A stretch of DNA of 20,970 bases. Source: a virus. Of the stretch, positions 3,614-20,962 are shown piece after piece. Under the pieces are notes generated by a model. The model worked only from the letters and a program-made list of their open reading frames with translations, did not search any database and was not told the origin of the DNA. Positions within the stretch are counted from its first letter, which is position 1; the number at the start of each line of letters is the position of its first letter. The DNA is taken from positions 1 through 20,970 of the IMG/VR virus record IMGVR_UViG_3300006925_002531, one strand, 5' to 3'. Both the position numbers and the translations under genes were made by a program.

Positions 3614-4508
3614 TAGCATATACGATAACAAAACAGATAAGCGTATGAATTATACAAGCTTCGACGAGTTCGAGGCTATTCTATATAAGCTATCTGAATC
3701 AACCAAATATCCAACAAAAAAAGATGCTCCACTCATAAGTCCTGCAGTATATATCCCCGATACAACAAGGGCTAATGACAACGTCACAGCATGGGGCAGC
3801 TTCGGGATTCTTGATATAGATGACTTTGACGGTAAGATGCATGACATCGAAGAGAAATACTCTCAATATCGATATGTCTGTTATTCAACTGCATCATCAA
3901 CAGTTGAGAATCCCAAATTTAGATTAGTGTTTCCACTAACACAAGCTGTAATGAAAGATGATATCAAACATTTTTGGTATGCATTAAATAAAGAGATTGG
4001 CGATATTGCTGATGCTCAAACAAAAGATTTAAGTCGTATGTATTATGTACCAGCTAAATATAAGAATAGTTTTAATTTTATATTCTCACATGCTGGTGAA
4101 ATAATGAATCCTGAAACACTCATGAATAAACATCCTTATGTCAAACCTAATCAAACAATGTTCGATAGATTTCCACCTGCAATACAAAAAGCTTTGCTTG
4201 AAAGAAAAAGAAATGAATTGAACAATACTAATTTTACATGGACATCTTATCGCGATTGTCCTTTTGTAAATAAAAAACAAATAGACGAATACAAAGGAAT
4301 CACCGGCACAGGTTGGTATTCTAAAATGTATCAAATCATGTTAACAACAGCTGGCAATGCAATGTCAAGAGGTTATCCAATTACATCAAAAGAAATCGAA
4401 TATATCTGTAGAGATTTAGATATTGATACAGGTGGTTGGTATGGTAAAAGAGATTTAGAAAAGGAGGCAGCACGAGCTATTGAGTTTGTGTTTAAAAATA
4501 ATATATGA
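3591..4508 (+). CDS. Primase-like protein (AEP-type catalytic domain with PriCT-like C-terminus)
   Basis: The 305-residue protein shows features of the archaeo-eukaryotic primase (PrimPol) superfamily as used by mobile replicons. Residues 71-79 (FGILDIDDF) carry the paired acids D75 and D77. YSTASST (98-104) followed by PKFRLVFPL (108-116) matches the central block, and KDLSRMYYVPA (145-155) the third motif. The usual motif-II histidine is not obvious. The C-terminal part from about residue 215 has the GWYSKMYQIMLTTAG and EKEAARAIEF helices expected of a PriCT-like domain. The start at 3591 follows GAAGGA with a 4-base gap, and the gene overlaps the previous one by 23 bases. It probably primes or assists DNA replication. 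No T4 gp61-type primase is in the window. A catalytically inactive relative is possible. Confidence 0.6.
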   Translation: MVSLTIFDSIYDNKTDKRMNYTSFDEFEAILYKLSESTKYPTKKDAPLISPAVYIPDTTRANDNVTAWGSFGILDIDDFDGKMHDIEEKYSQYRYVCYSTASSTVENPKFRLVFPLTQAVMKDDIKHFWYALNKEIGDIADAQTKDLSRMYYVPAKYKNSFNFIFSHAGEIMNPETLMNKHPYVKPNQTMFDRFPPAIQKALLERKRNELNNTNFTWTSYRDCPFVNKKQIDEYKGITGTGWYSKMYQIMLTTAGNAMSRGYPITSKEIEYICRDLDIDTGGWYGKRDLEKEAARAIEFVFKNNI

Positions 4509-5026
4509 ATAAAGAAACACACCCATTTAAAGCGTTTTTATATGGAATGGGATTTGGCGCATTATTAATGTTTATATTACTGTTGCCAGGTCAAGTAAAA
4601 GCGAGTGATGCAAACAATGATATTTATTGTATGGCACAAAACATTTATTTTGAAGCTGGTAATCAACCATTAGCAGGAAAGATTGCAGTAGCTCAAGTAG
4701 TTCTTAATCGATTAAAACATCCTAATTACCCAGCGACAATGTGTGATGTCATATATCAAGCAAAGTGGAAAAAAAATTGGAAAGGTAATATGGTACCAAT
4801 AAGAAATCAATGTCAGTTTAGCTGGTTTTGTGATGGTAAATCAGATGACCCTGTGGATAGTCCTACATGGCTTTTATCATTACATGTTGCAAGAGATGTA
4901 GTACAAAGTAGGTATGATGATATAACAGAAGGTTCTACTCATTACCACAACGATTCAATTCATCCATATTGGGCTGATTCACTTAATGAAACGGTTATTA
5001 TTAATAACCATATATTTTATAAATAG
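4505..5026 (+). CDS. SleB-type cell wall hydrolase with N-terminal membrane anchor
   Basis: The 173-residue protein carries the Hydrolase_2 (SleB) domain, a peptidoglycan-cleaving fold. Key blocks are CMAQNIYFEAGNQPLAGK (42-59) with the probable catalytic E50, AVAQVVLNRLKHPNYP, CQFSWFCDGK, and the late THYHND motif. Residues 12-30 are a hydrophobic segment (FLYGMGFGALLMF then ILLLPG) that should act as a signal peptide or signal anchor, so the enzyme probably works in the periplasm. It is coupled to the primase-like gene by an ATGA overlap. Lying in an early operon rather than beside structural genes, it may be a lysis enzyme exported by the host Sec system or an envelope-remodelling enzyme. 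Confidence 0.88.
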   Translation: MNKETHPFKAFLYGMGFGALLMFILLLPGQVKASDANNDIYCMAQNIYFEAGNQPLAGKIAVAQVVLNRLKHPNYPATMCDVIYQAKWKKNWKGNMVPIRNQCQFSWFCDGKSDDPVDSPTWLLSLHVARDVVQSRYDDITEGSTHYHNDSIHPYWADSLNETVIINNHIFYK

Positions 5027-7382: not shown

Positions 7383-7656
7383 CCCAAAAGAAATACAAAA
7401 TTCTACACGTATATATAAGAGTGCGACACCAAAATATACGATTGATTGGTATATTAAATGGATAGCATCTGTGTTTGTATTAGCAGGAATGTCAATACGA
7501 GGAGTAGATGGATTTCAATTTTATGATTTAATATTTTCAATTATTGGCGTAACACTTTGGACAGTTGTTGCAGCTTTATGGAAAGATAGAGCTTTATTAT
7601 TATTAAATGGAGTAGGAGTAATGTTTCTAATACGAAACTTAATTCAATCAATATGA
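7363..7656 (+). CDS. Small multi-pass membrane protein, unknown function
   Basis: The product is 97 residues. A polar N-terminus (MSSQKFDPKEIQNSTRIYKS) leads into hydrophobic stretches at about 30-45, 52-72 and 76-92, so two or three membrane passes are likely. The conserved-looking RIYKSATPKYTIDWYIKWI block suggests an established phage family, but I know no function for it. ATG 7363 is preferred over the in-frame ATG 7333 because GGAG sits about six bases ahead of it. The gene overlaps the end of the dCMP deaminase gene by 20 bases and the next gene by 4 (ATGA). Its place between nucleotide and sugar genes may only reflect operon packing. Confidence 0.72.
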   Translation: MSSQKFDPKEIQNSTRIYKSATPKYTIDWYIKWIASVFVLAGMSIRGVDGFQFYDLIFSIIGVTLWTVVAALWKDRALLLLNGVGVMFLIRNLIQSI

Positions 7657-8099
7657 GATTAGATTATAAAGAAAAAGGCAAGATAGGTATTACATTTTCA
7701 TGTTTTGATTTATTACATGCAGGTCATGTTACAATGTTAGAAGAAGCCAAAAGACATTGTGATTATTTAATTGTAGGATTACAAACTGACCCGACCATCG
7801 ATAGACCAGATAAAAACAAACCAATTCAATCAATAGTTGAAAGACAAATACAATTAGCAGGATTAAAATACGTAGATGAAATTGTCACGTATCAATCTGA
7901 AGAAGATATTATTGACTTACTTCTTACGTTACCAATTAGTGTAAGAGTAGTAGGTGAAGATTATAAAGGCAAAGACTTTACTGGTAAAGAGCTTTGTATA
8001 CAACAGAAAATTAAAATCATATATAATAGTAGGAAACACAGTTTTAGTACTACAAGTTTGAGGGAAAGATTAAATGAAAATAGCAATAACAGGAAGTGA
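7653..8099 (+). CDS. Glycerol-3-phosphate cytidylyltransferase-like (TagD/RfaE-C type)
   Basis: The 148-residue protein is a nucleotidyltransferase of the HxGH superfamily. The nucleotide-binding signature is FDLLHAGH (18-25, with H22 and H25), followed by EEAKRHCDYLIVGL, VERQIQLAGLKYVDEIV and the C-terminal HSFSTTSLRERL, equivalent to the ISTT motif. Length and motif set match TagD-like cytidylyltransferases, which make CDP-glycerol, and the C-terminal domain of RfaE, which makes ADP-heptose. Which sugar or polyol phosphate is used cannot be told. It is coupled by ATGA to the membrane protein and overlaps the epimerase gene by 26 bases, so a role in making an activated sugar or alditol for transfer to DNA or a surface glycan is the natural reading. 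Confidence 0.85.
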   Translation: MRLDYKEKGKIGITFSCFDLLHAGHVTMLEEAKRHCDYLIVGLQTDPTIDRPDKNKPIQSIVERQIQLAGLKYVDEIVTYQSEEDIIDLLLTLPISVRVVGEDYKGKDFTGKELCIQQKIKIIYNSRKHSFSTTSLRERLNENSNNRK

Positions 8100-8922
8100 T
8101 GGTTATATAGGTCAATGCCTAGTAGAAAAATTAAAAGATACAGAACATGAATTACTTTGTATTGATATGAATGAAGACCATAGACATCCTGCAGGTATAA
8201 ATGAAGTAAAACATAGAGCTTCTGAAACTTATTGGAATATTCGTAATACTCCAAATCATGGTGGACTACCTTGGCATTGGATAAACTTTGATTGTGTAGT
8301 ACATTTAGGAGCATTAGTAAAAGTAGGAGAGAGTGTTAAAAGACCGTGGGACTACTATGATACAAATGTAAATGGCACAAAGAAAGTCATTGAAGCTTTT
8401 CATGGTGCTAAGTTTATATTTGCTTCTACCGGTGCAGCATTTGACCCAACATCTCCGTATGCCAGGTCTAAAGTTGCTGCTGAAGATATTGTAAAAGAAA
8501 TGTGTGATGAATATACAATCTTTCGTTTCTTCAACGTAGGTGGAGGACAACCAACAAATCCTGAAGGTTTATACGCAGCAACAATGAATGCATGTGAATC
8601 AGGAACGTTTACAATTCATGGTAACGATTATAATACAAAAGATGGAACATGTGTAAGAGATTATGTTCATGTAGATGATTTATGTGATGCGATTATAAAA
8701 GCAATTCATGAACCAGGAGCTAATTCAGATTATGAACCACTAGGTTCTGGTAAGTCCTATACAGTTTCTGAATATGTAAATGCTTTCTTAGAAGTCAATG
8801 GTCCTAAATTTAAAGTAGAATATGGTCCAAGAAGAGAAGGAGATAATGAATCAAGTGAGGTACCATTTATGAGTAAGTTTATGAGCCCTCAAAAAACACT
8901 AGAGGATATAGTTAAATTATGA
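8074..8922 (+). CDS. NAD-dependent sugar-nucleotide epimerase/dehydratase (GalE-like)
   Basis: The 282-residue protein is an extended short-chain dehydrogenase/reductase. The Rossmann glycine motif is TGSDGYIG (6-13), and D31 at the end of the second strand suits NAD. The active site is S118/T119 (FASTG) with Y129-xxx-K133 (SPYARSK). Further blocks are RFFNVGGG, GTCVRDYVHVDDLCDA, and the C-terminal YGPRREGDNESS, equivalent to the RxGD motif of UDP-sugar epimerases. It is shorter than E. coli GalE (338 residues), with a trimmed C-terminal substrate domain. It probably acts on a UDP-sugar, perhaps interconverting gluco and galacto forms or the pentose equivalents, which would supply the mutase encoded further down. 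GAGGGAAAG precedes the start. Confidence 0.88.
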   Translation: MKIAITGSDGYIGQCLVEKLKDTEHELLCIDMNEDHRHPAGINEVKHRASETYWNIRNTPNHGGLPWHWINFDCVVHLGALVKVGESVKRPWDYYDTNVNGTKKVIEAFHGAKFIFASTGAAFDPTSPYARSKVAAEDIVKEMCDEYTIFRFFNVGGGQPTNPEGLYAATMNACESGTFTIHGNDYNTKDGTCVRDYVHVDDLCDAIIKAIHEPGANSDYEPLGSGKSYTVSEYVNAFLEVNGPKFKVEYGPRREGDNESSEVPFMSKFMSPQKTLEDIVKL

Positions 8923-10028
8923 AGATATTAATTACAGGAATGAATAAGAATCAAACAACAAAAGATTTTTATTTAAGACAACAATTAAAAGTTGTACCAT
9001 CTCACTATTCGTTAATACGATGTTTAGAAGATATGGGTTATGAAGTAGAACAAAGATTAGTCAAGATTGGAGAAGACTTAAGTGATTACGATAAAGTCAT
9101 ATGTTTTCTTGCTTCACCAAGACAAGCATTACAACTTGCATTTTATAATGGACTATGGGCAATACATTCTACACCAAAAGAAAATTTAGTTCTTGCAATG
9201 GATGATTGGCAAACAGAAGATATCTTTAAAGGTATTCAATCATGTAAAGATAAAGAATCTCTTTTAAAAGAATTTACAATTGGTCAAAACAAAATGACTG
9301 ACCCTGATATGTCATATGAATTACTTGAACCACATACACAAACATTATTAGATGCAGTTAACTTCATTGGTTCAAAACAAGCACCAATGCTATTATCAGT
9401 GTTTATGGGCGGCGATATGACAAAGCTTATCGATTATCCAAAAGATTTATTAGTCGGTTATGACCCAAATCCATATCATAGAAACAGAGCACCAGGTAAT
9501 AGAGGTGATGTTGAAATTGAAGATATGGAATTCATGGAACAACAAATGATGCCAACAATTGAAGAAGATACTGTGGTGCCAGAAGATAAACTAAAGTGTT
9601 TTAACTTTGCTTCATTAGTACAAGGTAAAACTAAAAGATGGTTAAAGCAACAAAATGTAACTGATTGGGACATTGAATTCTTTGGCTCAAGAAAAGAAAA
9701 GCAAAGAAGATTAGTTGAAGGTGATATGTGTAAAGTATATGCAGAACAATGGGGAAGTCTTATGCCAGGTTATCATCATGCTGGTTCAGGCTGGTGGAGA
9801 GCAAGACCTTATCAAGTTGCAGATGCTGGCTCTATTCTAATAGGTGAATATGATGAAATGTTTTTATTATATGGCGATGAAGAACTTGCTAATCTTACTG
9901 CAAGAGACCTAGAAATAAGTAATATAAATAAACTTACAATATTAGCAAAAAGACAAAGAGATGCTCTATATGAAAGACATCCACTTGATAAAGAGAAACA
10001 ACAAAAAGAATTGAAAGTTATATTATGA
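8919..10028 (+). CDS. Conserved phage protein, possible GT-B-like glycosyltransferase
   Basis: I cannot assign this 369-residue protein firmly. The N-terminus (MKILITGMNKNQTTKDFYLR, then SHYSLIRCLEDMGYEVE, and DYDKVICFLASPR at 57-69) has the look of a GT-B N-terminal Rossmann domain. The region from about 290, HHAGSGWWRARPYQVADAG followed by SILIGEYDEM, resembles the acceptor end of a GT-B C-terminal domain where a sugar nucleotide binds. There are insertions in the middle, including an acidic stretch (VEIEDMEFMEQQ). It overlaps both neighbours by ATGA junctions and lies between an epimerase and UDP-galactopyranose mutase, which favours a sugar-transfer role. T4 alpha- and beta-glucosyltransferases are also GT-B enzymes, but no direct similarity is visible by eye. 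Confidence 0.6.
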   Translation: MKILITGMNKNQTTKDFYLRQQLKVVPSHYSLIRCLEDMGYEVEQRLVKIGEDLSDYDKVICFLASPRQALQLAFYNGLWAIHSTPKENLVLAMDDWQTEDIFKGIQSCKDKESLLKEFTIGQNKMTDPDMSYELLEPHTQTLLDAVNFIGSKQAPMLLSVFMGGDMTKLIDYPKDLLVGYDPNPYHRNRAPGNRGDVEIEDMEFMEQQMMPTIEEDTVVPEDKLKCFNFASLVQGKTKRWLKQQNVTDWDIEFFGSRKEKQRRLVEGDMCKVYAEQWGSLMPGYHHAGSGWWRARPYQVADAGSILIGEYDEMFLLYGDEELANLTARDLEISNINKLTILAKRQRDALYERHPLDKEKQQKELKVIL

Positions 10029-11032
10029 GAATATTAATCGTAGGAGCCGGATTCTCCGGTGCTGTGATAGCAAGAGAATGTGCAGCAGCAGGTCATTTAG
10101 TAAAAGTAATCGATAAGAGAGACCATATAGGCGGTAACGCTTATGATTATACTGATTCAAATGGAATACGTATACACAAATATGGACCACATTTATTTCA
10201 CACAAATAACGAAAAGGTAGTGCAATGGCTATCACAATTTACTGAATGGGTTCCATATCAACATAAAGTCAAAGCACAATTAAATGATGGAACTTATGTT
10301 ACATTACCGGTAAATAAAGAAACAAAAAAGATTGTAGGTGAAGAGAATGTGTTAGATATTTTCTTTCGACCATACACAAAAAAGATGTGGGGCAAAACAC
10401 TTGATGAATTAGACCCATCAATTATAAATCGTGTACCTATTCGTGATGATGACAATGAGTTATACTTTCCAAATGATGAATATCAAATGATGCCAAAGAA
10501 TGGTTATACAGAAATATTTAAGAATATATTTAATCATTCAAATATTGAAGTAGAATGTAATGTAGAGTTTCATCAATCAATGGAAGAAGAATACGATTAT
10601 GTATTTAATTCAATGCCAATTGACATGTACTTTAACTATGATTATGGTGAACTTCCATATCGTTCAATTAAGTTTCATAATGTTACACTTCAACAACCAA
10701 AAGTATTACCTACAGGAACAGTAAACTTTACGCACGATGGTCCATATACAAGAGTTACTGAATGGAAGAATATTCCAGCTCATGGCAAAAATGATTATAC
10801 AACAGTTCTTACATACGAAGAACCATGCGACTATAAAGATAATAACTATGAAAGATATTATCCAGTAAAAGATTTAGAAGGAGCAAATAGAGAAACATAC
10901 AAAAAATATAAAGATAAAGTCAATGAAGATAAGATGACTTTTATTGGAAGATGTGGAATGTATGTTTATGTTGATATGCACCAGGCGATTAGTTCTGCTT
11001 TGGCAACTGCAAGGAGATTTTTAGACAAATGA
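10025..11032 (+). CDS. glf: UDP-galactopyranose mutase
   Basis: This flavoenzyme interconverts the pyranose and furanose forms of a UDP-sugar, classically UDP-galactose. The FAD-binding site is GAGFSG (7-12) with VKVIDKRDHIGGNAYDY (26-42). The family signature HKYGPHLFHTNNEKV follows, then WVPYQHKVKA. FFRPYTKKMWGKTLDEL and the closing block, with FIGRCGMYVYVDMHQAI and SSALATARRFL, complete the match. At 335 residues it is slightly shorter than bacterial Glf (about 367-380). It is coupled to its neighbours by ATGA overlaps. Related mutases act on UDP-arabinopyranose, so a pentofuranose product is also possible. The N-terminal codons are more GC-rich than the surroundings. A furanose donor implies a furanosyltransferase, for which the preceding gene is the only candidate here. 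Confidence 0.95.
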   Translation: MRILIVGAGFSGAVIARECAAAGHLVKVIDKRDHIGGNAYDYTDSNGIRIHKYGPHLFHTNNEKVVQWLSQFTEWVPYQHKVKAQLNDGTYVTLPVNKETKKIVGEENVLDIFFRPYTKKMWGKTLDELDPSIINRVPIRDDDNELYFPNDEYQMMPKNGYTEIFKNIFNHSNIEVECNVEFHQSMEEEYDYVFNSMPIDMYFNYDYGELPYRSIKFHNVTLQQPKVLPTGTVNFTHDGPYTRVTEWKNIPAHGKNDYTTVLTYEEPCDYKDNNYERYYPVKDLEGANRETYKKYKDKVNEDKMTFIGRCGMYVYVDMHQAISSALATARRFLDK

Positions 11033-12216
11033 ATTATGCAAGTATTGTACCATTAATAGGTGGTGAAACCATTGCAATGGAAAACGTGTTTGGTCAAAGA
11101 CCAGATTATATGTTAACCTTTGATGGATTTCAAGCAAATGAAACTCATTTAAATAATTACTATAAACATGAAGTACCTTACTTAAATTTATCAGAAGGAA
11201 AGAAACATCCTCATAGTGTAGATGTTATTAATACAGTTTGTCCTTGTGCAGGTTTAAGTTCTTTAAGTCCATCTGCTTCAAGCAACAATCCAATGAATGA
11301 ATGGATGTATACATCAGCAGAATATATATTAAATAAAGTACAACCTAAAGTTTTCTGGGGAGAGAATGCACCAAGATTAGCAAGTAAAATGGGAGAGCCA
11401 GTTGTAAAGAGACTGAGAAAAATTGGAGAGGAGAATGGATATACGTTTAGTATATTTAAAACAAAATCATTATTACATGGTTTAAGTCAAGTAAGAGATA
11501 GAACATTTTATTTCTTTTGGAAAGATGATAGAATACCATTATTTGATTATATACAAGAACAACCTACAATGATTGCTGATGATATACGTGCAGTAAAAAG
11601 ATGTGATAATGACCCAATGAGTCGAATACTTTGTAATGAAAAGAAACCATCTGAAGAACCGTATTATCGGTATGTACTTGAAGTATTAGAAGGTGGAATA
11701 TCACATAGTGAGTTTCAAGATAAAATAGAAAAGACAACAAACCCTATGGATTACATAGAGGAAAGAACAACATATAAAGAAGTAGCGCAATGGATGAGAG
11801 AAAATGGCTATGAAAGTATGGCAAAGAAATGTGATAGGCAATATCATAAGCTAAAAGCTGGTGGTAATATCATGAGAAAAACCACAGAGATTCCTAAAGA
11901 TAAAATAGGAGCTTTTGTAGGTCATATGCCAACTATGTTGACTCATCCAGATGAGGATAGATATCTTACAGTAAGAGAAGCTCTATCACTTATGAAATTA
12001 CCTTTTGACTTTATATTATTAAACCCTAAGAGGTCACTTAATCATATATGTCAAAACGTACCTGTTACCACTGCAGAACATCCAGCAAGAATGGTACAGA
12101 AATATTTAAACAATGATTTAGATATGATTGATACAAAGTTTATGGTTCAAGATAATAAAAAAAGAACCTACGAATATGAAAAAAACAGTGTACAATTGTC
12201 TGAATTTATGGTATAA
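11029..12216 (+). CDS. DNA cytosine-C5 methyltransferase-like protein, divergent motif I
   Basis: The 395-residue protein has the core motifs of C5-cytosine methyltransferases, which transfer a methyl group from S-adenosylmethionine. Motif IV is CPCAGLSS (71-78) with catalytic C73, motif VI is ENAP (112-115, usually ENV), motif VIII is QVRDR (154-158), and motif X is near NVPVTTAEHPA at the C-terminus. Motif I, normally FxGxGG, is replaced by VPLIGGETIAMEN (7-19), so cofactor binding is altered but not clearly lost. A long middle region (170-300) may be the target-recognition domain. The last residues EYEKNSVQLSEFMV run into promoter P4, and the TAA stop (12214-12216) lies inside its TATAAT box. 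The gene closes the P3 operon. It could protect phage DNA from host restriction. Confidence 0.85.
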   Translation: MNYASIVPLIGGETIAMENVFGQRPDYMLTFDGFQANETHLNNYYKHEVPYLNLSEGKKHPHSVDVINTVCPCAGLSSLSPSASSNNPMNEWMYTSAEYILNKVQPKVFWGENAPRLASKMGEPVVKRLRKIGEENGYTFSIFKTKSLLHGLSQVRDRTFYFFWKDDRIPLFDYIQEQPTMIADDIRAVKRCDNDPMSRILCNEKKPSEEPYYRYVLEVLEGGISHSEFQDKIEKTTNPMDYIEERTTYKEVAQWMRENGYESMAKKCDRQYHKLKAGGNIMRKTTEIPKDKIGAFVGHMPTMLTHPDEDRYLTVREALSLMKLPFDFILLNPKRSLNHICQNVPVTTAEHPARMVQKYLNNDLDMIDTKFMVQDNKKRTYEYEKNSVQLSEFMV

Positions 12217-16688: not shown

Positions 16689-18083
16689 ATGAAAAGCCTT
16701 AAAACTTTTATAAACAAAGATATTATTATTGAAGCAGTGGCTTTAACTCCTGCACAATTAGATGCAAATAATTCAAAAACTGGAAAAGCAAGAATTGATA
16801 TTCTTAAACAATTAGTTGTACAAAAAAAGCCATTAGAATTGGCAAAAGGTGGTTCTATTGTTGTAACAAATATAGAAGCTGCTTTAATTCACATAGCTAA
16901 TTTTAAAAAAAATCCATTACATTACGGTAAAAAAGGATTTCCATTAGAAACAGATTCAGGCACCTATATGTCAAATCAATTAGCTAAATCAAAAGTATTT
17001 GGTGGCGGAGGCGGCGGCGCAGGAAGTGGTACCAAAGATACAAAAAGAAATGAATCTCATAATGCTGTAATGATACATGCGATGTTAGAGCATGGTTATA
17101 ACCAGCCATTAGAATTTTTTACTAATGATATATTAAAAAATGCTTACAATCTAGCAAACGTTGATGCATCATGGAATGAATTATCTGATATGCCAGATGC
17201 TTGGATATTATCATCATATAATATTTCGAAAGAACTAATAAAAAAAGGTTATGTTAAAAAAGGAATGACCATACATCGAGGTAGTTCAGAAATGATACGC
17301 ATATATGCTAAGAAAAATGAAGCATATAAAAATATGGGATTAACTAAACTTAAAGATGATAAATGGAATCCAGGAGATGTATGGGCAATAGACAAAGGAT
17401 TTAATGTAGAATCGCTTGATGCGTCAAATATTAAATCATTAAATAATAACATATTAGAAAATTTTGTAGATAAAAAATTAATTGGTATATCTCTTAAAGG
17501 TCCTATGACTAAAAATGTTCCAATAAAAGAATATAATGTCGATGTGTCTTCATTAAAAAAATACAAATATGCACGCTTTGAATTAGAAACAAAAGGCGGA
17601 AACTATTGGTCTGCTAAAAATGGTTCACTAGTTTATAGCTCAGGCATATTAATGTTTAAAGATAATAAACAGTTTGGAAATATTAAAGCTGAAATTAAAG
17701 GCGGTAAAGCAAGAGGCGGAGGATTGTCATGGGGAATTATGCATGACTATTTAGTTAGAAATGGCCGTCAATATGGATTAAAACCTCACGCTGCATATAT
17801 TGTTAAACAAGCTAAAAAAATGGATAAAGGCGATGAAAGAGCAATAAAAGAATATTATACATATTTTAATTATTTTTATAATAATGTTTCTTATGAAGAA
17901 TTTAAAAAGAATTTAAAAGAAAAAGATGGACAATGGATATCATCTAAATTTGCTATTACGATGGTAGCTTATCAATTAGAAAAATTAGGTGGTACAAAAT
18001 TAAATGATACAATTACAAATTTTATTAACTATGCAGGTTCTGAATTATCAGAATCAAGTGCATATGTAAAAGCAGGAAAATAA
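16689..18083 (+). CDS. Putative capsid-targeted protein, possible nuclease-like domain
   Basis: The 464-residue protein begins MKSLKTFINKDIIIEAV, similar to the T4 capsid-targeting sequence, and III-E15 followed by A16 fits the prohead protease pattern (L/I-x-E). A glycine run (VFGGGGGGAGSGT, 103-115) links an N-terminal region to a larger domain. In it, DKWNPGDVWAID (224-235, D230), KLIGISLKG (263-271, S268 and K270) and the block ending AEIKGGKARGGG (334-345) recall phage proteins with a D...(E/S)xK site of restriction-endonuclease type. GMTIHRGSS (192-200) is slightly like the first motif of ADP-ribosyltransferases, but the later motifs are not evident. It is the first gene after the late promoter, with AGGAG before the start, and ends at a TAATG junction. 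Function is inference; packaging with the DNA is the better-supported part. Confidence 0.72.
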   Translation: MKSLKTFINKDIIIEAVALTPAQLDANNSKTGKARIDILKQLVVQKKPLELAKGGSIVVTNIEAALIHIANFKKNPLHYGKKGFPLETDSGTYMSNQLAKSKVFGGGGGGAGSGTKDTKRNESHNAVMIHAMLEHGYNQPLEFFTNDILKNAYNLANVDASWNELSDMPDAWILSSYNISKELIKKGYVKKGMTIHRGSSEMIRIYAKKNEAYKNMGLTKLKDDKWNPGDVWAIDKGFNVESLDASNIKSLNNNILENFVDKKLIGISLKGPMTKNVPIKEYNVDVSSLKKYKYARFELETKGGNYWSAKNGSLVYSSGILMFKDNKQFGNIKAEIKGGKARGGGLSWGIMHDYLVRNGRQYGLKPHAAYIVKQAKKMDKGDERAIKEYYTYFNYFYNNVSYEEFKKNLKEKDGQWISSKFAITMVAYQLEKLGGTKLNDTITNFINYAGSELSESSAYVKAGK

Positions 18084-19324
18084 TGAAATCACTAACTAAC
18101 TACTTATCAGAAGCCGCAGGTAAAAATACTCATATGACACATATTGAGGATTTGATTCTTGACGGCGGAGTTAAGGGGGCTCGCCAAGCTATCCTAGCGC
18201 TTAGGTCAATGAGGGATATGTTGAGCGGTAATGCAAAAGCACCAATAGACATTACTGTAAAGTGGGACGGAGCCCCCGCCGTATTTGCTGGAGAAGACCC
18301 GAGAGATGGTCAATTCTTTGTAGCAAAAAAAGGTATATTTAATGCAAATCCAAAAGTATACAAAAGTCATGCTGATATTGATGCAGATACATCAGGTGAC
18401 TTATCTAAAAAATTAAAACTTGCATTCGACCATTTAAAAGGCCTTGGCATTAAAGATGTGATACAAGGCGACTTTATGTTTGATTCAAGTGATTTAAAAA
18501 AGGAGAAAATAAATGGAGTTGGACATATTACTTTCCATCCTAATACTATCCTCTATGCTGTACCTCTTACTACGCCATTAGCGAAAGAAATACAAAGAGC
18601 AAAGATTGGTATTATTTGGCATACATCTTATAGTGGTTCATCATTCGAAACAATGTCTGCATCTTTTGGTAAAGACATTGTAACTAAACTTAAAAAATCA
18701 AATGATGTTTGGATGGATGATGCTACATTAAAAGATGTAAGTGGAACTGCAACATTAACAAAGGCAGAATCATTATTACTTAGTAAAAAGTTATCTGATG
18801 CTGGTAAAATATTTCAAAAGATTGCTTCTAAAACATTAAAAGAAATCGAATCAAATAAAGAATTAAACCTAGTAATTAATGTATATAATAATTCAATGGT
18901 AAGAAAAGGCCAAAGAATTACAGATACATCAAAACATGCGAAAGGTTTAATACAATTTGTGACTGATAGATATCAAAAACAAATCGACAAACGTACATCA
19001 CAAAAAGGAAAAGATATACAAATAACTAAAAGAGATGAATTATTATCCTTTTTTAGTTCAAGTAATCTAAAAAACTTAAAAAATGTATTCGATTTACATA
19101 ATTTAGTTACAGATAGCAAATTAATTATTATAAATAAACTAAATACTCTCAGTAAAATGGGAACATTTGTAAAAACTAAATCCGGGTTTAAAGTAACCAA
19201 CGTAGAAGGTTTTGTTGCTATAGACCGAATGGAAGGTGGCGCTGTTAAGTTAGTTGATAGATTAGAATTTTCAACTAATAACTTCAGCAAAGATATTATA
19301 AAAGGCTGGGATAATCCAGGCTAA
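18083..19324 (+). CDS. Ligase-superfamily nucleotidyltransferase, putative capsid-targeted
   Basis: The 413-residue protein starts MKSLTNYLSEAAG, a very good capsid-targeting-like sequence with LSE10 followed by A11. Covalent nucleotidyltransferase motifs follow: motif I VKWDGAP (59-65, nucleophile K60), FFVAKKG (78-84), a motif-III-like VIQGDFMF (126-133), motif IV VEGFVAIDR (374-382), and motif V AVKLVDR (387-393, K389). DNA ligases, RNA ligases and capping enzymes share this layout, in which K60 would carry AMP. Motif I normally continues KxDGxR, but here it is KWDGAP. Some 240 residues lie between motifs III and IV, much longer than usual. I recall similar proteins in T4-like phages as DUF6267, without known activity. 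The 5' end (18160-18300) is unusually GC-rich. Confidence 0.8.
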   Translation: MKSLTNYLSEAAGKNTHMTHIEDLILDGGVKGARQAILALRSMRDMLSGNAKAPIDITVKWDGAPAVFAGEDPRDGQFFVAKKGIFNANPKVYKSHADIDADTSGDLSKKLKLAFDHLKGLGIKDVIQGDFMFDSSDLKKEKINGVGHITFHPNTILYAVPLTTPLAKEIQRAKIGIIWHTSYSGSSFETMSASFGKDIVTKLKKSNDVWMDDATLKDVSGTATLTKAESLLLSKKLSDAGKIFQKIASKTLKEIESNKELNLVINVYNNSMVRKGQRITDTSKHAKGLIQFVTDRYQKQIDKRTSQKGKDIQITKRDELLSFFSSSNLKNLKNVFDLHNLVTDSKLIIINKLNTLSKMGTFVKTKSGFKVTNVEGFVAIDRMEGGAVKLVDRLEFSTNNFSKDIIKGWDNPG

Positions 19325-19341: not shown

Positions 19342-20718
19342 ATGACAATTAAATCATTCAGTGATTATTTAACTGAAAACACAAAAGAAGTTTCATTCGT
19401 ATTTGGGCGATTCAATCCGCCTACAATAGGTCATGAGAAACTATTTGAAGCACTAAAGAAACAATCACGTGGTGGTTCATATCGCATATATGCATCTAAA
19501 TCTGTTGATGCAAAAAAGAATCCTCTTCAATTTAAAGACAAAATAAAATTCTTACGTAAGATGTTTCCAAAGCATGCTCGTAATGTAATGGCTGATAAAG
19601 ATATTCGTACAGTACTCGATGTAGCAGTAAAATTGTATGACCAAGGCTTTACCAAATTAAACATGGTTGCAGGTAGTGACCGTGTAAAAGAGTTTAATAT
19701 ATTATTAAACAAATATAATGGTAAACAAGCTAAACATGGCTTTTACAATTTCGAAGGTGCAATTAATGTAGTAAGCGCAGGAGAAAGAGACCCAGATGCA
19801 GAAGGTGCAACTGGAATGTCTGCTTCTAAAATGCGCATGACCGCTCAACAAAACGACTTAGCTGGTTTCGCGAAAGGGTTACCAGCTGGGTTCAATCCAA
19901 ATGATTTGTTTAATGCTGTACGTAAAGGTATGGGATTAAAACAAGAAAGTACTTTTAGACAACATGTTGATTTACCTGTTGTTTCAGAAGTAAGAGAAGA
20001 ATATGTAAGTGGTAATCTTTTTCAACAAGGAGATATTGTAAAAATAAAAGAAAGCTCTGAATTTGGTGAAATTGTTGTATGTGGAACTAACTATGTTATA
20101 GTTGAAACAGAAAATGGTAAGAAAAGACATTGGTTAGATAATGTTGCAATAGTAGAATATAATGAAATAGGAACTGATGAGTATACACAATACTTACTTA
20201 AAAATACACCTTTCGCTAAATTAGTAAAAGAAAGACAAGATAAAGATATTGGAAAAAGAAAAGGTTCACAACCTGCATCATATCATACAGGACTATCAAA
20301 GTCTACAAAAGTAAAAAGAGATGCTCAGTTTAAAAAACAAGCTAAAATGGATGATGATAATCCAGCAGCATATAAGCCTGCTCCTGGTGATGCTTCAGCA
20401 AAAACAAAGCCATCTAAACATACAAAGAAATTTAAACAAATGTTTGGTGAAATGGCAGAACATATTACATTCGAAGATTTTATGGTCGAAGCAAAAGGAA
20501 CAGATACTGCTTTAAAGAAAAAAGCAGATAAGTCAGGTATGCCGTTAGGTATATTAAGACAAGTATTTAATAGAGGAGTAGCAGCATGGAAGACAGGTCA
20601 TAGGCCTGGAACTACTGCAATACAATGGGGGTTAGCAAGAGTTAATTCATTTGTAACAAAATCAAAAGGAACATGGGGTAAGGCAGATAAAGACTTAGCC
20701 GCAAAAGTAAGAGGATAA
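19342..20718 (+). CDS. HxGH nucleotidyltransferase (NMNAT-like) fused to a C-terminal phage domain
   Basis: The 458-residue protein starts MTIKSFSDYLTENTKE, capsid-targeting-like. Residues 17-185 form an adenylyltransferase domain: FVFGRFNPPTIGHEK with T/HxGH, VAGSDRVKEF, and GMSASKMR replacing the ISxTxxR motif. This is the pattern of NMN adenylyltransferases, which make NAD from NMN and ATP, though other substrates are possible. A small beta-barrel-like segment follows near 227-275 (QQGDIVKIKESSEFGEIVV, then a WLDNVAIVE end), then a Lys-rich linker (290-365). A second targeting-like motif ITFEDFMVEAKG (375-386) precedes a C-terminal domain containing RGVAAWKTGHRPGTT and ARVNSFV, which I associate with DUF5824. 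GAGGAT precedes the start. Confidence 0.82.
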   Translation: MTIKSFSDYLTENTKEVSFVFGRFNPPTIGHEKLFEALKKQSRGGSYRIYASKSVDAKKNPLQFKDKIKFLRKMFPKHARNVMADKDIRTVLDVAVKLYDQGFTKLNMVAGSDRVKEFNILLNKYNGKQAKHGFYNFEGAINVVSAGERDPDAEGATGMSASKMRMTAQQNDLAGFAKGLPAGFNPNDLFNAVRKGMGLKQESTFRQHVDLPVVSEVREEYVSGNLFQQGDIVKIKESSEFGEIVVCGTNYVIVETENGKKRHWLDNVAIVEYNEIGTDEYTQYLLKNTPFAKLVKERQDKDIGKRKGSQPASYHTGLSKSTKVKRDAQFKKQAKMDDDNPAAYKPAPGDASAKTKPSKHTKKFKQMFGEMAEHITFEDFMVEAKGTDTALKKKADKSGMPLGILRQVFNRGVAAWKTGHRPGTTAIQWGLARVNSFVTKSKGTWGKADKDLAAKVRG

Positions 20719-20719
20719 A

Positions 20720-20962
20720 ATGAAAACGTTTTTTCAATTAAGAGAAGCCAAAGTTAAAAAACTTAAATTGGACTTTGATATGGGAGACCCAAGAAAACAT
20801 CAAGCTGATTGGCAGGAAGAAGATGTTTTTATAGTCAACTGGAACAAAAGTAAAATGGAAGTAACTGTTGAAGGAGAGCCTAAAGCTTTAGAGCAATGGT
20901 TAGTAGGAACTTATGGATACGATAAAAAAGAAGCTAAAGATGCAATGAGGAATGCAAAATGA
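20720..20962 (+). CDS. Small protein with capsid-targeting-like N-terminus
   Basis: The 80-residue protein begins MKTFFQLREAKVKK, in which LRE9 followed by A10 fits prohead protease processing. The remainder (KLDFDMGDPRKHQADWQEED, then VFIVNWNKSKMEVTVEGEP) suggests a beta-hairpin followed by a helix (ALEQWLVGTYGYDKKEAKDA). No known family is recognised. GAGGATAAA lies before the start, and the stop overlaps the next start by ATGA. It belongs to the late gene run. Confidence 0.75.
   Translation: MKTFFQLREAKVKKLKLDFDMGDPRKHQADWQEEDVFIVNWNKSKMEVTVEGEPKALEQWLVGTYGYDKKEAKDAMRNAK

Follow-up and report, generated by a model that had tools for sequence, protein, structure and literature searches.

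The stretch of viral DNA analyzed here (the window: 20,970 nucleotides, positions 1 to 20,970 of IMG/VR record IMGVR_UViG_3300006925_002531) carries a gene at 18083..19324 on the plus strand, whose 413-residue product belongs to the Pfam family DUF6267 (PF19782, E = 2.4e-102) and is read here as a ligase-superfamily nucleotidyltransferase with a helical insert. We favor the interpretation that DUF6267 proteins are covalent nucleotidyltransferases that form a hitherto overlooked family within the polynucleotide-ligase superfamily, active in ligation and, in some phage lineages, packaged by means of an N-terminal leader. All features of this protein located below are on the plus strand, and papers are cited by PubMed Central (PMC) number.

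The PF19782 match scores 343.5 bits (cut-off 27) and covers positions 1-373 of the 376 in the profile; the protein also falls within PHROG 455 (E = 1.9e-93), and both are families without an assigned function. All 14 members of one reference alignment (A1), which reach as low as 26% identity to the window protein, match the same profile. Relatives were found by tblastn in 466 of 50,697 phage records with the window protein as query, and in 468 with the member from cyanophage Syn1; these are mostly cyanophages, together with Pelagibacter phage HTVC008M, Methylophilales phage Melnitz, Stenotrophomonas phage DLP_6 and Vibrio phage 2.275, the DUF6267 member of which has no relative in the viral_contigs set. 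Tallied by record name, rather than paired record by record, DUF6267 is present in 368 records named Synechococcus vs. 376 for the gp41 helicase (E up to 1e-60), and in 61 vs. 61 records named Cyanophage. A literature search for the name DUF6267 found no mention, nor does it occur in the available part of a jumbo-phage review (PMC7824862).

Conservation was assessed on 289 loci with a match, 276 of which contain a closed DUF6267 frame (275 of them longer than 280 residues), taken to start at the furthest upstream ATG where one existed; merging identical proteins, and adding two phage proteins and the window protein, gave a set of 224 distinct members. One of these, from phage S-PM2 (L084:5998-7773), is a protein of 591 residues vs. 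the usual 400, trimmed to 460 for this set; it bears a cytidyltransferase-like name in the BFVD viral structure library, and is probably a fusion of DUF6267 with its cytidylyltransferase neighbor, as PHROG 455 also suggests.

The motifs expected of a nucleotidyltransferase occur in order along the window protein. Motif I, KWDGAP (residues 60-65; 18260..18277, the position confirmed on the DNA), contains K60, presumably the lysine that accepts adenosine monophosphate (AMP); K83 (18329..18331), assigned by order and spacing, is the presumed motif Ia residue. These are followed by motif III, QGD (128-130; 18464..18472, strand 126-134), motif IV, EGFV (375-378; 19205..19216, strand 376-381), and motif V, AVKLV (387-391; 19241..19255, strand 386-390), the last two spaced 14 residues apart. 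Residues identical in all 224 members comprise K60, D62, G63, P65, G70, K83 and D130, then P153, N154, Y158, H180, T181, Y183, N270 and K346, and, toward the C-terminus, E375, G376, V378, K389, F396, N400 and F401, as well as H17, H20 and E22 near the N-terminus. D23, Q128, R393 and K407 are shared by 223, and V391 by 222. A hand-written pattern (KxDG followed by EGxV and by K) was matched by only seven of 20,000 shuffles of the window protein, and by one of the window's 16 stop-to-stop frames of at least 150 residues, the DUF6267 frame itself. Across 2,290 such frames from the loci, it picked out 182 that bear the family's HxxHxED signature and a single other, which comes from L331, a locus with a match to a T4 Rnl1-type ligase. 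Being invariant in 224 members, and rare in shuffled sequence and in other frames, the motif set is not attributable to chance.

The predicted structure points in the same direction. An AlphaFold2 model of the full-length protein (75 aligned sequences: the window protein and 74 of 78 representatives) has a predicted local distance difference test score (pLDDT) of 88.6 and a predicted template modeling score of 0.85, and RNA or DNA ligases account for 47 of the 50 VIA-align matches listed, led by the Naegleria RNA ligase (Z = 8.4, 3.9 Å, 186 residues); the first non-ligase, an Hsp70, appears at rank 35. Because the tool warns that a Z near 8 may be background, a naturally short member of 296 residues with a smaller insert (L289) was folded too; a further fold alignment, of 61 rows, was taken from the same representative set with L258 added. 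The short model (pLDDT 90.6) matched ligases in all 50 of the VIA-align matches listed, again with the Naegleria RNA ligase first (Z = 9.5, 3.6 Å, 178 residues) and with T4 Rnl1 (7.9), REL1 (7.8) and T4 Rnl2 (7.6) among the others, and in 44 of the 50 Foldseek matches listed. In the BFVD library, the first match annotated as a ligase comes from phage Atu_ph07 (an RNA ligase; rank 15, E = 4.6e-3, probability 0.98). On these grounds, it is likely that DUF6267 has a nucleotidyltransferase fold and active site.

A preliminary description of the window had singled out this open reading frame as an unusual ligase-superfamily member with a complete nucleotidyltransferase core, a motif I ending in AP rather than xR, and a gap of about 240 residues between motifs III and IV. 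The frame proved real, with the coordinates right and 413 residues encoded; the core is complete, in that K60-W-D-G-A-P, E375-G-F-V and V388-K389-L-V are all present and their key residues are found in 224 of 224 members; and the unvarying motifs, together with both predicted folds, support superfamily membership, if with modest similarity scores. The AP ending is likewise true, but a motif I that does not end in xR is normal in RNA ligases (K-I-H-G-[TA]-N in relatives of T4 Rnl2), and the protein, far from standing alone, belongs to a conserved family with a wide distribution. As for the gap, D130 and E375 are indeed separated by 244 residues in the window protein, although this length is not constant, ranging from 155 to 249 across the 224 members, and members of about 300 residues retain the motifs with a reduced insert. 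The insert itself (residues 227-354; 18761..19144, delimited by DSSP of the model) lies between motifs III/IIIa and IV and is modeled as helices 227-246, 249-257, 259-274, 282-303, 307-324 and 326-354. Since N270 and K346, located in or beside it, are invariant, the insert is probably functional, as judged from sequence conservation.

Several observations weigh against a ligase assignment. Motif Ia has a lysine instead of arginine, motif III an aspartate instead of glutamate, and motif V one lysine instead of two, the second being replaced by V391; moreover, the motifs were assigned by order, spacing and secondary structure, not from superposed coordinates. The best Foldseek E value against the Protein Data Bank (PDB) is 0.054 for the full-length model and 0.012 for the short one, with none reaching 0.001, and Z scores of 7-8 are, by VIA-align's own warning, common background. 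Sequence searches of the PDB, with the single protein and with a profile, returned weak rows and no ligase, and profile-profile comparison with T4 Rnl2 gave probabilities of 0.4% and 0.2%. The last test is powerless at this depth, because true ligase pairs fail it too (Rnl2/Rnl1 1.2%, Rnl2/DNA ligase 0.4%, Rnl1/DNA ligase 0.9%, vs. 0.2-3.6% for DUF6267 in the same control run). An NCBIfam search revealed no link to known ligases, and none of 14 DUF6267 members matched PF01068, PF09511 or PF09414 at E up to 1.

Comparison with characterized enzymes helps to place the family. ATP-dependent DNA ligases (PF01068) continue beyond motif V into an OB domain with motif VI; in DUF6267, only 24 residues follow K389 in the window protein, and 18-27 in most of the family. 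In the full-length model, neither an OB nor a C-terminal domain is apparent; the chain ends shortly after the strands of motifs IV and V with a single helix (393-401), and ahead of the first strand (residue 56) there are only the disordered leader and one helix (21-47). The Naegleria gruberi RNA ligase (NgrRnl; family Rnl5) resembles DUF6267 in its KxDG motif I and in a chain that ends soon after motif V. Its E312 and K326 (named in PDB titles), which we take to be the motif IV and V residues, show the same 14-residue spacing. NgrRnl has an N-terminal OB domain, and its aligned part starts at about residue 142, whereas DUF6267 has only the leader there and differs, too, in the helices inserted ahead of its motif IV. 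T4 Rnl2 has a C-terminal domain and two lysines in motif V, vs. one in DUF6267. T4 Rnl1 and Rnl2 resemble DUF6267 in being phage proteins with a motif I lysine and a fold match to the short model; the C-terminal domain of Rnl1 (PMC11494293) has no counterpart in DUF6267.

The human protein RLIG1 (C12orf29), which was uncharacterised until its recognition as a ligase (PMC9931718), combines KxDG with a nucleotidyltransferase domain without an RNA-binding domain, has the Naegleria RNA ligase as its top Dali match, and is a working 5'-3' RNA ligase (PMC11494293), albeit one that failed to seal nicks (PMC9931718). It thus provides a precedent for an active ligase built like DUF6267. The IV-V spacing of RLIG1, at 13, is close to the 14 of DUF6267. 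RLIG1 proteins (human, Yasminevirus) differ in having an arginine in motif Ia and a glutamate in motif III, with neither a capsid leader nor a phage context. Neither RLIG1 nor capping enzymes appear among the VIA-align matches listed for either model, which excludes nothing. Judging from the models, the DUF6267 catalytic domain would resemble those of NgrRnl and RLIG1, with a family-specific insert added and no separate nucleic-acid-binding domain recognisable, and a polynucleotide-ligase function appears probable.

The same features could be taken to indicate that DUF6267 transfers AMP or guanosine monophosphate to an acceptor other than a nucleic-acid nick (a metabolite, for instance, a protein or the 5' end of an RNA), possibly in concert with the NMNAT-like enzyme encoded next to it in nearly all loci (210/215, see below). 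The deviations in motifs Ia, III and V from classical ligases, the family-specific insert with its invariant N270 and K346, and a model in which no separate nucleic-acid-binding domain is apparent would all fit such a role. The ligase-superfamily rows among the VIA-align matches listed are, however, all polynucleotide ligases, and RLIG1 ligates despite lacking an RNA-binding module (PMC11494293); we therefore regard a non-nick acceptor as unlikely.

If DUF6267 is a ligase, its N-terminus suggests where the enzyme may act in the window lineage. The first ten residues, MKSLTNYLSE (18083..18112), immediately precede the conserved core KNTHMTHIED and form a putative capsid-targeting leader, with cleavage expected after E10; residues 1-16 are disordered in the model (pLDDT <50). 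Ten residues suffice for capsid targeting of the T4 internal protein IPIII, where residues 8 and 10 determine processing (PMC9026906), and the T4 protein Alt is cleaved at ITE and LTE (PMC5694885). The likeness to T4 internal proteins and Alt lies in a short N-terminal leader ending in [LI]xE; the difference lies in the cargo, here a ligase-type enzyme, whose packaging is putative. Scored as [LIVFM]xE before the core, a leader occurs in all 78 loci that are readable among the 80 found with the window protein and in all 78 readable among the 80 found with pelagiphage HTVC008M, but in none of the 80 found with cyanophage Syn1 (all readable) and none of the six readable among seven found with cyanophage ACG-2014d. 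Among genome contigs, it is present in 16 of 21 readable (of 28), and among named phages in four of 11 readable (of 13). Leader sequences vary widely among the loci that have one. The last four open reading frames of the window all begin with a leader-like N-terminus; the pattern is loose, however, and is matched by seven of the 24 other open reading frames in the window as well.

Published virion proteomes bear on this point. The S-CREM2 virion comprises 52 listed proteins, including a cytidylyltransferase, gp154, detected by three unique peptides (PMC10665884), the N-terminus of which (MKNFSSFLTEA) is leader-bearing. The S-CREM2 DUF6267 protein, gp87, is without a leader and absent from the 52-protein list (PMC10665884). 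The authors of that study caution that such enzymes might be contaminants (PMC10665884), and a further weakness is that the DUF6267 member available for this comparison is a leaderless one. The S-CREM1 virion list has 14 proteins. In S-CRM01, a kinase-like protein near DUF6267 (L290:7670-10135) starts with another such leader, MISFDQFLSE, and a putative protein kinase is present in S-CRM01 virions (PMC10665884). The capsid-type N-terminus noted in the preliminary description is thus supported, by a clean split between leader-bearing and leaderless sub-lineages and by a virion that holds a neighbor-type protein with the same kind of leader. On the strength of this analysis, we think it reasonably probable that the DUF6267 protein is packaged in the window lineage.

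A packaged protein with modest fold scores and a capsid-type leader might instead be a catalytically dead ligase relic acting as an internal protein of the head. This we consider very improbable: the catalytic positions are invariant in 224 of 224 members, even those only 26-28% identical to the window protein, and leaderless members exist, that of S-CREM2 being missing from the 52 virion proteins listed (PMC10665884).

The genomic neighborhood of DUF6267 is in part conserved. Directly downstream in the window (19342..20718, plus strand) lies a gene for an NMNAT/cytidylyltransferase-like protein (phrog_3041, E = 5.8e-97) with a DUF5824 C-terminus (PF19141, E = 4.3e-18) and a similar leader (MTIKSFSDYLTE), relatives of which follow DUF6267 in 210 of the 215 loci whose downstream sequence exceeds 1,500 bases; a literature search for the term 'cytitidyltransferase' found nothing. 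The upstream neighbor (16689..18083, plus strand; phrog_1462, E = 2.1e-29) also has a leader-like N-terminus, but is variable, relatives occupying this place in 106 of 243 loci. An 80-residue open reading frame at 20720..20962 (plus strand), recognised from its sequence and the loose pattern only, begins MKTFFQLREA. In the cyanophages read, DUF6267 sits within the gp43-uvsX-gp41 cluster.

This last position raises the possibility that DUF6267 supplies the replicative DNA ligase missing from T4-like cyanophages and pelagiphages and seals nicks while the phage DNA is copied, packaging being no more than incidental in some lineages. In its favor, 11 of 14 named phage genomes with DUF6267 contain none of PF01068, PF09511, PF01653 and PF09414, while T4, as a control, has three of these four ligase families and no DUF6267; cyanomyoviruses, moreover, lack T4 g30, the DNA ligase gene, although unidentified distant homologues were allowed for (PMC2984593). 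On the other hand, the host ligase may suffice (PMC2984593), and PF01068 co-occurs with DUF6267 in three of the 14 (DLP_6, Vibrio 2.275 and S-CRM01), PF09511 and PF09414 in one each (both Vibrio 2.275) and PF01653 in none. With three genomes holding both enzymes, and with co-distribution confounded by shared ancestry, the argument from replacement is weakened; the closest folds, furthermore, are RNA ligases, and the leader in two groups points to a role at entry. We accordingly hold a replicative role to be doubtful. For S-CREM2, a ligase gene is mentioned in the genome description (PMC10665884), whereas our searches of that genome with PF09414 and PF01068 found no ligase (PF09511 and PF01653 were not searched).

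Two repair scenarios suggested by the neighborhood were set aside. In HTVC008M, a P-loop kinase (L082:7718-8380; Zeta_toxin, E = 3.1e-13; AAA_33, E = 3.8e-11) lies between DUF6267 and the cytidylyltransferase, but it matches the PHROG polynucleotide kinase at only E = 8.5e-8, and relatives occur downstream in 74 of the 276 closed-frame loci; a kinase-ligase repair operon was not adopted, the cytidylyltransferase directly following DUF6267 in the window. The idea that DUF6267 and the upstream protein form an injected pair of ligase and nuclease was also abandoned, since no function is assigned to phrog_1462 and the gene at that position is not constant. The phrog_1462 proteins of the window and of another locus (L085:4478-5977) share a glycine-rich patch and a KWNPxDxW stretch, and by eye could have a nuclease-like fold, without profile support. 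Elsewhere in the window, also by eye, 4505-5026 resembles a cell-wall hydrolase of the SleB type and has a membrane segment at its N-terminus, and 7653-11032 resembles a sugar-nucleotide set (cytidylyltransferase-like, epimerase-like and UDP-galactopyranose-mutase-like proteins). The usual motifs of C5 DNA methyltransferases are PCQG and ENV; a protein of this appearance at 11029-12216 has PCAG and ENAP in their place.

Under the ligase interpretation, K60 would attack adenosine triphosphate to form lysyl-AMP, with D62, D130, E375 and K389 handling metal and phosphates; AMP would then be transferred to a 5'-phosphate, and the 3'-OH would close the break in RNA or DNA. The preliminary description had proposed an end-healing or tagging role, which is not supported, the nearest folds being those of end-sealing enzymes. 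In the window phage and its near relatives, the ten-residue leader ending in LSE may direct the protein into the prohead, where a gp21-type protease would remove it, and the enzyme would enter the host with the genome, alongside the NMNAT-like cytidylyltransferase, whose leader is similar. The leaderless form of cyanophages would be synthesized inside the host cell, its gene being part of the replication cluster.

T4-like cyanophages also lack the T4 tRNA-repair pair Pnk and Rnl1, an absence that has been used as an argument about host defence (PMC3874168), and DUF6267 could be a candidate either for filling this gap or for the DNA ligase that T4-like marine phages seem to lack. A more speculative proposal, to which we give little credence, is that DUF6267 is the long-missing ligase of marine T4-like phages and a further type of phage ligase beside gp30, Rnl1 and Rnl2, reading its substrate through the insert, and that in lineages infecting heterotrophs it is packaged in advance, injected and mends host-inflicted breaks before phage genes are expressed.

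What appears to be new, as far as the models allow, is a widespread group of unassigned function within the ligase superfamily, distinguished by its insert and, in certain lineages, by a leader that would target the head. We know of no phage example of an injected ligase, and a literature search on the subject found none; should the leader-bearing form be packaged, it would be one. T4-like cyanophages and pelagiphages abound in the ocean, and a conserved, unannotated ligase-type enzyme in them would reopen both published absences, that of a T4-type DNA ligase and that of Pnk/Rnl1.

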